From Sphingosinicella sp. LHD-64 (lineage in GTDB: Bacteria; Pseudomonadota; Alphaproteobacteria; Sphingomonadales; Sphingomonadaceae), in NCBI RefSeq assembly GCF_031157375.1, contig NZ_JAVIFV010000001.1:372001-436000 (forward strand): 64,000 nucleotides of DNA, given 5' to 3'. Positions 2,153-48,546 of this stretch are shown here, piece by piece. The position numbers were made by a program, and so were the translations under genes. Under the pieces are notes generated by a model, which was given only the letters and a program-made list of their open reading frames with translations, searched no databases and was not told the origin of the DNA. The stretch's first letter is position 1. The number at the start of each line of letters is the position of its first letter.

Positions 2153-3742
2153 TTAGGCCTTCTTGGCCGGGGCCTTCTTCGCCGCCGGCTTCTTGGCCGG
2201 AGCGTCGGCCTTCTCGGACGCATCCGCCTTCTTTGCGGCGACCTTCTTCGTCGGCTTCTCGGCCGGCGCTTCGACGGCATCCGCCTTGGCGGCAGGCTTC
2301 TTGGCCGCGTCCTTCTTCGGCCCTTCGACGCCGCCTGCGGCGTCGCTCAGGACAGGCTTGGCACCGTGGTCATGATCATGGTGATCGTGACCGCAGCCCG
2401 GGCCGTGGACATGGCCTTCCTCGGACTCGATCGCCTCCTGCAGCGCGTCGCGGGTCACCTCGCGGTCGCCGATCTCGGCCTTGCCGAACAGGAAGTCGAC
2501 GACCTTGTCCTCGTAGAGCGGCGCGCGGAGCTGCGCGGCGGCCATCGGTTCGCTGCGGATATATTCGACGAAGCGCTGGCGGTCCTCCGGCCGGTACTGC
2601 TGCGCCGCCTGCATGACGAGCGCGTTCATTTCCTGCTGGTTGACTTCGACGCCGTTCTTCTGGCCGATCTCGGAGAGCAGCAGGCCGAGGCGGACACGGC
2701 GCTCGGCGATCGCGCGATAGTCGCCGCGCTCGCTCTCCATCTCGGCGCGGGCGGCCGCGGGGTCCTCCTCGTGGCTCGCCTCATGCTCGAGCTGGCGCCA
2801 GATCTGATCGAACTCGGCATCGACCATCGACTGGGGCACCGGGAAATCGTGCGCGGCCGCGAGCTGGTCGAGCAGCTGGCGCTTCATATGGGTGCGGGTG
2901 AGGCCGTTCAATTCCTGCTCGACCTGATTCTTGAGCAGGTCCCGGAGCTGGGCGATCCCCTCCAGGCCCATCGACTGGGCGAAGGAATCGTCCGCCTTCA
3001 CGTCGCGCGCGGTCTGCACCTCGTTGACGACGACCTCGAACACCGCATCGCGGCCTTTCAGATAGGCGACCGGATATTCCTGCGGGAAGGTCACCTTGAC
3101 CTGCTTCTCGTCATTGGCCTTCACGCCGACGAGCTGGTCCTCGAAGCCCGGGATCAGGCGACCCGAGCCGAGCTCGATCGACATGCCCTCGCCCTTGCCG
3201 CCCTCGAACGGCTCGCCGTCGACCTTGCCCTCGAAATCCATGACGACGAGATCGCCCATCGCGGCCTTGTGGGCGGCGGGAGCGGGATCGAAGCTCTTCT
3301 GGCCCTGGGCGAGGCGCTGGGCGGCCTCGTCGAGCATGTCGTCGGAGACGGGAACGGTCAGCCGCTCGAGCTTCAGGCCCTCGATGCTCGCCGCCGGCAC
3401 GTCGGGGAGGGTCTCGACCTCGACGGTGACGATGGCGTCCTTGCCCTGGCCGGCTTCCTCGAGCGCGACGCTCGGAGTCATGGCCGGGCGCAGGTTCTGC
3501 TCGGCGAGCAGCTTCTGCACACCCTCCTGAACCGCGCTCTCCAGCGCCTGCTGCTCCAGCGCGGGGCCGTGCATCTTGCGGACGAGATTGGCCGGAACCT
3601 TGCCGGGACGGAAACCGGGCATGCGCACCTGCGGCGCGACCGACTTCAGCTCGGCATCGACCCGCGCGCTGATGTCCTTGGCGGGGATGGTGAGCCGATA
3701 GGCGCGCTTCAGGCCCTCGTTCAACGTCTCGACAGTCTGCAT
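2153..3742 (-). CDS. tig: Trigger factor, ribosome-associated chaperone/prolyl isomerase, with extended His-rich and Lys/Ala tail
   Basis: The ribosome-docking signature GFRPGKVP is at residues 43-50. An FKBP-type PPIase domain follows at about 155-245 (GDLVVMDFEGKVDG...), then the helical chaperone domain. The start chosen is ATG 3742 (MQTVET), the family's usual N-terminus with AAGG upstream; an in-frame ATG at 3757 would add five residues. Typical trigger factors are 430-450 residues and this one is about 529. The extra tail contains a His-rich patch (443-460, GHVHGPGCGHDHHDHDHG), then a Lys/Ala/Pro-rich disordered stretch. Residues 465-474 (LSDAAGGVEG) are encoded by a 31-bp dispersed palindromic repeat (2321-2351). 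Chaperone function is certain; the tail's role is unknown. Confidence 0.95.
   Translation of the reverse strand: MQTVETLNEGLKRAYRLTIPAKDISARVDAELKSVAPQVRMPGFRPGKVPANLVRKMHGPALEQQALESAVQEGVQKLLAEQNLRPAMTPSVALEEAGQGKDAIVTVEVETLPDVPAASIEGLKLERLTVPVSDDMLDEAAQRLAQGQKSFDPAPAAHKAAMGDLVVMDFEGKVDGEPFEGGKGEGMSIELGSGRLIPGFEDQLVGVKANDEKQVKVTFPQEYPVAYLKGRDAVFEVVVNEVQTARDVKADDSFAQSMGLEGIAQLRDLLKNQVEQELNGLTRTHMKRQLLDQLAAAHDFPVPQSMVDAEFDQIWRQLEHEASHEEDPAAARAEMESERGDYRAIAERRVRLGLLLSEIGQKNGVEVNQQEMNALVMQAAQQYRPEDRQRFVEYIRSEPMAAAQLRAPLYEDKVVDFLFGKAEIGDREVTRDALQEAIESEEGHVHGPGCGHDHHDHDHGAKPVLSDAAGGVEGPKKDAAKKPAAKADAVEAPAEKPTKKVAAKKADASEKADAPAKKPAAKKAPAKKA
2321..2351 (-). repeat. Dispersed 31-bp palindromic repeat inside the trigger factor gene
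   Basis: Read on the minus strand this begins CCTGAGCGACGCCGC and ends GGCGTCGAAGGG, with a central perfect stem GACGCCGC-AG-GCGGCGTC. All 31 bases are identical to 48501-48531. The outer halves CCTGAGC and TCGAAGG are also found in a shorter variant at 43634-43655. Here the unit is read in frame as LSDAAGGVEG. Confidence 0.85.
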
Positions 3743-3803
3743 TGCGAAAACCTTCATGTCAGCAAAAGATGCGGGCGCCTATGCGTGGGCGTTTCGGGCG
3801 GAC

Positions 3804-36127: not shown

Positions 36128-36211
36128 CGTCATTGCGAGGAGCGAAGCGACGAAGCAATCCAGCCTGACTCAAAGGCTGCACTGGATTGCTTCGCTGCGC
36201 TCGCAATGACG
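36128..36211. repeat. Long imperfect palindromic repeat (ATTGCGAG...CAATCCAG type)
   Basis: Arm 1 (36128-36163) begins CGTCATTGCGAGGAGCGAAG and ends CGAAGCAATCCAG. Arm 2 (36182-36211) begins CTGGATTGCTTCGCTGCGCT and ends CGCAATGACG. A short loop joins them. A related element lies at 48416-48546. The predicted RNA hairpin is long and would sit in the leader of the ECF sigma gene on the minus strand, or at the 3' end of the preceding transcript. Confidence 0.8.
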
Positions 36212-43633: not shown

Positions 43634-43655
43634 GTCCTTCGACTTCGCTCAGGAC
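43634..43655 (+). repeat. Short palindromic repeat, CCTTCGAC...GCTCAGG type
   Basis: GTCCTTCGACTTCGCTCAGG (extended by AC) has arms GTCCT/AGGAC and shares its outer parts with the longer 31-bp repeats at 2321-2351 and 48501-48531. It lies downstream of the PstS-like gene and of the oppositely transcribed 4.5S RNA, and may act as a bidirectional terminator. Confidence 0.6.
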
Positions 43656-48415: not shown

Positions 48416-48546
48416 CGTCATTGCGAGCGGAGCGAAGCAATCCAGTAGCGCGCGGAGGCCCGCTGGATTGCTTCGTCGCTGCCGCGAAGCGGCAGTTTAT
48501 CCTGAGCGACGCCGCAGGCGGCGTCGAAGGGCTCCTCGCAATGACG
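48416..48546. repeat. Composite repeat: ATTGCGAG-type palindrome interrupted by a CCTGAGC-type repeat
   Basis: Arm 1 is 48416-48445 (CGTCATTGCGAGCGGAGCGA... CAATCCAG). Arm 2 starts at 48463 (CTGGATTGCTTCGTCGCT) but breaks at 48480. A 51-base insert (48481-48531) follows, then arm 2 resumes as CTCCTCGCAATGACG to 48546. The insert carries a small hairpin (GCCGC-GAA-GCGGC) and the 31-bp unit found in trigger factor. It lies between mmcQ and ndk, which are convergent. Confidence 0.85.
48501..48531 (+). repeat. 31-bp palindromic repeat, second copy (nested)
   Basis: It starts CCTGAGCGACGCCGC and ends GGCGTCGAAGGG, identical over 31 bases to the copy inside the trigger factor gene at 2321-2351 (opposite strand). 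The central stem is GACGCCGC-AG-GCGGCGTC. Confidence 0.85.

Follow-up and report, generated by a model that had tools for sequence, protein, structure and literature searches.

The tail of trigger factor in Sphingosinicella sp. LHD-64 has very probably acquired, by a recent in-frame insertion at a GCC, a REP-like, non-autonomous mobile palindrome that is kept in genes where it is harmless. The 31-base repeat described in an earlier note on this DNA would be the core of this short element, which would have landed in the disordered tail so that GCC now stands at both ends and the gene is longer by 36 bp (12 codons). The window analysed is the whole stretch of 64,000 nucleotides, and its features are collected in Table 1. 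Comparison of sequences among species establishes the insertion relative to repeat-free species, its length, the GCC at the site and the repetition of the pattern in other genes.

Table 1. Location of tig, the inserted element and related repeats in the window
Feature	Position	Strand	Remarks
tig (trigger factor)	2153..3757	-	534 aa; Pfam Trigger_N, FKBP_C, Trigger_C; TIGR00115 tig
36-bp net insertion in tig	2319..2354 (equivalently 2322-2357)	-	33-bp element plus one GCC; encodes PVLSDAAGGVEG
30-bp core CCTGAGCGACGCCGCAGGCGGCGTCGAAGG in tig	2322..2351	-	same as 13 other genomic copies
GCC 5' of the tig element (target copy)	2355..2357	-	
GCC 3' of the tig element (second copy)	2319..2321	-	
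Hairpin stem-loop GACGCCGC-AG-GCGGCGTC	2327..2344	-	RNA folding
Short-form family member CCTGAGCGAAGTCGAAGG	43636..43653	-	different flanks; called intergenic
Element-free CGTC-type REP hairpin (ATTGCGAG...GCAATCC)	48420..48443	+	adjoins laden hairpin
CGTC-type REP hairpin (GGATTGC...CTCGCAAT), element in loop	48465..48542	-	
Non-coding copy of the core	48501..48530	+	nested in CGTC-type REP hairpin loop

The tig copy and the tig genes of relatives

The match between tig and the non-coding repeat at 48501-48531 is exact over the 31 bases originally reported and extends to 33 bases (2320-2352 against 48500-48532). The block read from it, LSDAAGGVEG, occupies residues 465-474 when numbered from Met6, which are residues 470-479 of the 534-aa ORF, and the short relative suspected near 43634-43655 is real (Table 1). 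The insertion of a mobile palindrome into the tail, predicted to be disordered from its AlphaFold2 pLDDT of <50 over residues 448-534, is supported by the absence of the block from other tig ORFs, by the relative-like tail obtained on excision and by in-frame copies in other genes; the size of the inserted unit has to be corrected from a 31-mer to the 36 bp of net gain.

tig was detected in all 60 genomes searched, and loci were taken from 30 of them together with 36 loci of named records. A set of 58 of the 66 loci (L042-L099) yielded 54 tig ORFs, the search rule giving none in L070, L094, L095 and L098; the 53 ORFs other than the present one consist of 28 from genus and family genomes and 25 from named records, those most similar to the present tig being from Sphingomonas, Rhizorhabdus and Sphingopyxis. 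The block is encoded, in divergent codons or otherwise, in 0 of the 53. The remaining eight loci (L100-L107), which are the most distant of the named ones, gave six tig ORFs, with LSDAAGGVEG in none.

Removal of the 36 bp leaves GGT GCC AAG CCG AAG AAG GAC GCG GCC AAG (HGAKPKKDAAK), to which the equivalent stretch of relative G024 is close (GGC GCC AAG CCG AAG AAG GGC GCG GCG AAG), and joins HGAK to PKKDAAKK in the full tail, as in relatives. The alternative offered earlier, that the tail grew out of repeat DNA, fails as a general account, since relatives free of the repeat already have the His/Lys/Ala tail. An ancestral or convergent protein sequence with a coincidental DNA match might be entertained because the tig tail is of low complexity and variable across relatives; however, the identity covers 33 bases with silent positions included, dinucleotide-preserving shuffles of the window (n=100) gave 0 matches to the 30-mer at ≤3 mismatches, the block is missing from every other tig ORF and the unit recurs in unrelated genes, so that this explanation is negligible.

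The sister species G025 carries no copy in tig, nor in the genes of an M28 peptidase, ATP synthase b (atpF) and egtB, and has a shortened copy in tsaB. Its sister position is evident from a six-protein tree (FastTree local support 0.994), in which G005 and G013 come next, followed by G018 and G024; the tree is left unrooted by its two outgroups (tig only), and the local order alone was used. In G018, tig has a short form that has diverged, CCT GTC CCG AGC AAG GTC GAG GGA (PVPSKVEG), read in the same frame but four codons further on, and this tig is the only one among the other tig ORFs read to display V[LPQ]S..VEG. As G025, G005, G013 and G024 lack the element, two insertions in tig are simpler than one insertion followed by three losses, and the short form of G018 is probably a separate insertion. 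Five relatives (L049, L051, L052, L065 and L066) have a short family member, CCTTCGACARGCTCAGG, outside the ORF, 58-73 bp past the stop codon of tig.

The hairpin expected in the tig mRNA does fold as a 39-nt RNA (-21.2 kcal/mol, z -2.1), but within a 63-nt tig context its z of -0.9 is unexceptional for such a GC-rich stretch. Recruitment of the repeat peptide or of the mRNA hairpin for a function, such as an effect on the tail or on the 3' end of the mRNA, would agree with the retained frame and with insertions into the same tail in two species; in other bacteria, REPs close to gene ends influence mRNA. It is nevertheless improbable: the element is absent from the sister species and the tig copy is identical to the mobile consensus, which leaves little time for selection to show, and the same peptide is found in unrelated proteins, the tail is predicted to be disordered and the in-context hairpin is unremarkable. 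No function is indicated for either the peptide or the hairpin.

The repeat family and its copies in other genes

The element is a unit of ~33 bp with the structure (T/C)GTCCTGAGC-stem-GTCGAAGG, in which the stem sequences vary among cores yet pair, as in GACGCCGC/GCGGCGTC and GCCTGC/GCAGGC. The count of genome copies called for by the earlier note gave 23 copies of the 30-mer at ≤3 mismatches in the 3.89-Mb genome, 14 of them exact; three lie in confirmed genes (tig, M28 and tsaB) and 20 do not, L010, taken as upstream of its gene, being scored among the latter. A wider pattern, CCTGAGC-N(0-30)-GTCGAAGG, matches 49 genomic places. Within the genus, the 30-mer is present at ≤1 mismatch in 13 of 26 genomes, the present one counted, and a reversed-pattern control gave 0. 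REPs range from 20 to 40 bp according to the abstract of PMC3733652, and the element is REP-like in the broad sense, being a short (20-40 bp), imperfect and mainly intergenic palindrome with many dispersed copies.

The long unit is open in two of three sense and all three antisense frames. The 18-base short form folds no better than its shuffles (z 0.1), and a tandem pair of short copies at L108:1501-1542 reads GCC-unit-GTC-unit-GCA. Cores of 17, 23, 27, 31 and 33 bases also occur, none of them found as a clean genic insertion (the uvrA copy, of core 17, has undefined boundaries), as would be expected if selection removes frameshifts. The 39-nt unit has no match at E 0.001 among 72,556 plasmid records and 20,395 E. 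coli records. The exact 30-mer was seen on one IMG/VR contig (viral_contigs; L359:1869-1898), where no gene is convincing by eye.

Genic copies were delimited from simple codon-score gene calls on 50 loci of the present genome, from Pfam and NCBIfam matches and from genus orthologues. The net gain is 36 bp in tig, tsaB and the M28 peptidase, 24 bp in atpF and egtB, and 39 bp in mtaB. In the M28 peptidase the element is antisense and adds 12 codons, CREEG[PSTPPAASLRTG]EDR, absent in all 20 aligned orthologues, five other genomes with weaker matches having been left out of the alignment; placement of this segment in a loop was abandoned because the structure model (mean pLDDT 54) was unusable. 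Both 8-codon insertions are antisense as well and absent in 24 of 24 relatives: KAA[LRQGSGQA]LANG in atpF, and GTG[PSTSLRTG]FAFD in egtB, which is also missing from PDB 8qf6.

In tsaB the 12 codons of PDAK[PVQSDAAGGVEG]PMT compare with PDAKPMT in G005, and in 21 of 25 aligned relatives the protein stops no more than a few codons from PDAK, G002 being cut off before the site. The sister species (L165) reads PVQC-GVEG, which is 12 bp fewer (one hairpin arm, the loop and two more bases) with the frame kept; it is best read, on alignment, as the same insertion less 12 bp, probably because an older insertion has decayed. In G001 (L167), tsaB has five to six extra codons (ASGAAG) at this C-terminal site, perhaps a further eroded copy and perhaps something unrelated, and G004 also has a few others.

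The linker of mtaB (UPF0004/Radical_SAM) contains an in-frame pair of CGTC-type hairpins, the first with the element in its loop, so that CGTCATTCCGGGCGAAGCC-[element]-GGCCGGAATC stands against CGTCATTCCGGCGAAAGCCGGAATC in G019. This linker (L222-L247) is a recurrent site of REP insertion throughout the genus: among 25 relatives, clear in-frame inverted repeats of REP type, of at least two classes, were recognised in 8 and a degenerate pair in G022, with none recognised in 16.

Several other candidates were rejected. The C-terminus of UvrA (L112) has a repeat-derived stretch, but the tails are too variable to delimit it; a second UvrA C-terminal match lies just downstream of uvrA at G025:C1:1178732-1178932, G005:C45:106937-107110 and G009:C1:356145-356267. 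A fragment of an IS5-type transposase (L039:1501-1518) shows eight repeat-encoded residues, HVLSFVEG, between ADK and GYDA, and was not taken as a seventh gene insertion on account of its GCA/GGG flanks and fragmentary state. In L010 (glycerate-kinase-like), L037 and L041 the element falls in an N-terminal extension that probably precedes the true start. Other overlapping ORFs, in L024, L030, L034, L040 and L110 and on the plus strand of L032 and L035, are unconfirmed or opposite a confirmed gene.

Draft assemblies can mis-join repeats, and an artefact of assembly or annotation might therefore be invoked; it is very improbable, however, for an assembly of 8 contigs (99.98% complete) with all six gene copies >40 kb from contig ends, with exact in-frame gains in separate genes, and with the shortened tsaB insertion in the assembly of another species.

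Insertion sites and the possible mode of movement

Roughly 23 of 50 copies, by a simple rule and with mtaB included, are nested in the loops of CGTC-type REP hairpins, the term 'CGTC-type' being assigned from the tag and the A-T start as described in the main text of PMC3733652 and not from a family search. Many of the long intergenic copies are so placed. At 48420-48545 an element-free hairpin stands side by side with a laden one, and another element-free hairpin of the GGATTGC...CTCGCAAT kind occurs at 36184-36207. At own-genome loci, which were selected for carrying the element, this hairpin was counted 16 times without the element and 11 times with it in the loop. A test for flanking arms (exact inverted arms ≥6 bp) gave 15 of 50 against a shuffled-partner mean of 11.9 and maximum of 20; it is uninformative because the copies share flanks, and the nesting rests on the comparison of element-free with laden hairpins.

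GCC flanks both ends of the element in tig, tsaB, M28, atpF and egtB, five of the six genes, and mtaB has GCC and G-GCC. Repeat-free relatives have a single GCC, or GGC where the element is antisense, at the sites in tig (G024), tsaB (G005), M28 (G013), atpF (G025) and egtB (several relatives, not all). Either a 3-bp target duplication or a unit ending in GCC inserted after a GCC may account for this arrangement, two readings that the data do not separate; the paired GCC could also represent microhomology instead of target duplication. It is absent at most other copies that share the left end of the gene copies, the only non-genic exceptions being L030 and L041, which have a longer flank in common. 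The loop of the CGTC-type hairpin (GGCGAAAGCCGG) has an AA-GCC context, and so do the GCC/GCC targets in genes other than M28 (four of five). This likeness suggests, short of proof, that the genic sites would be off-target landings.

The element would move in trans by a transposition-like process. Other REPs have their single-stranded hairpin handled by a Y1/HUH-type enzyme, and processing of the present hairpin by such an enzyme is a first guess. Most landings would be lost or intergenic, many of them inside CGTC-type REP loops, and landings in genes would persist only at tolerant sites, with an open frame and a gain divisible by three. Y1_Tnp (PF01797) has 0 matches in the present genome and is found in 11 of the 26 genus genomes, where the element is near it at 0 of 19 loci (flanks up to ~1.5 kb); a RAYT as demonstrated partner was rejected on both grounds.

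Insertion could instead have occurred by template switching or microhomology-mediated repair, with a hairpin already in the genome serving as the template at a break or stalled fork that bears GCC. The two-sided GCC in five genes could then be microhomology, the genome is without Y1_Tnp, and CGTC REPs likewise have no dedicated transposase as far as they are described in PMC3733652. Against this, the unit ends at identical bases in the five genes, which a dedicated reaction explains more easily, and no arm DNA of CGTC REPs was carried into these genes, though many intergenic copies have such arms. From these junctions, repair-based copying appears possible but doubtful, and an enzyme acting in trans, either lost or unrecognised, is rather the likelier agent. 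A more specific version is unlikely: the single-stranded hairpin would home through an enzyme to GCC in other REP loops, and its stray insertions into genes would serve as codon cassettes, settling again and again at tolerant sites (the tig tail, the MtaB linker) in different species. Its basis is that genic forms add 24, 36 or 39 bp and that the long form is open in five of six frames.

Relation to known repeats and significance

A close likeness is to the CGTC REPs of Alphaproteobacteria, which have no dedicated transposase according to the main text of Di Nocera et al. 2013 (PMC3733652), where in-frame GTAG/CGTC REPs are described in genes of numerous bacteria, S. alaskensis and E. lithoralis (abbreviations of that paper) among them. 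Like these, as described there, the present element is a short, imperfect and dispersed palindrome, mostly intergenic but in some ORFs, and without a dedicated transposase. The terminal tag, at the left end, is TGTC/CGTC at the six gene copies and TTAT/TTAC at many nested copies, as compared to CGTC and TGTC/CCTC in families 1-4. In those families the stem is stated in the same text to open 'almost invariably' with complementary A-T in positions 1-2, whereas the present element reads CTGAGC after the tag; and where they have an unpaired tail, most fitting CCA, CCA directly follows the core at none of the copies listed, the 3' side starting with GCC, GGC, GGG or GCT at most. Unlike the CGTC REPs, moreover, the element often lies inside CGTC-type hairpin loops and has GCC at both ends in genes.

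With the Rickettsia palindromic elements (RPEs; Ogata 2000, 2002, as presented in the review PMC10969869) the family shares in-frame insertion of a mobile palindrome into unrelated genes (tig, tsaB, M28, atpF, egtB and mtaB), most orthologues of which are without it, and a repeat-encoded peptide. RPEs are, in that account, ~150 bp long and each encode a conserved peptide, whereas the present element adds 24-39 bp and uses several reading frames and both orientations. GTAG REPs and REPINs with RAYT transposases, as outlined in PMC2817692 and PMC3116915, are similarly small dispersed hairpins spread over the genome; in contrast to them, the copies listed have no GTAG immediately next to the core, the genome has no Y1 transposase, and at the 19 Y1_Tnp loci of relatives none adjoins the element.

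The term 'trigger factor' was not found in the main text of PMC3733652, nor was any paper joining REP, trigger factor and intragenic found among open-licence texts exclusive of figures and supplements. In the same texts, the repeat core words returned no paper on bacterial repeats by title among the matches listed, and matches to longer repeat words and peptides were unrelated by title and abstract start. The present family may already figure in the figures or additional files of PMC3733652, and is set apart here by the main-text description. Since in-frame insertions of REPs and of Rickettsia palindromes are already known, the principle is not new.

The finding provides one sphingomonad-related genome in which a single family of small palindromes has six in-frame insertions with defined limits; they affect a chaperone, tRNA modification proteins (TsaB and MtaB), ATP synthase and others, and most have empty sites in the sister species. 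Two questions become testable through it: which agent mobilises REPs lacking a transposase partner, and how frequently selfish DNA turns into protein sequence. It also calls for caution, as blocks such as 'VLS..VEG' or 'PSTSLRTG' in such proteins can be repeat insertions and not conserved motifs. The family is thus an example of 'selfish' DNA adding new stretches to proteins, here in genes of an ordinary kind.
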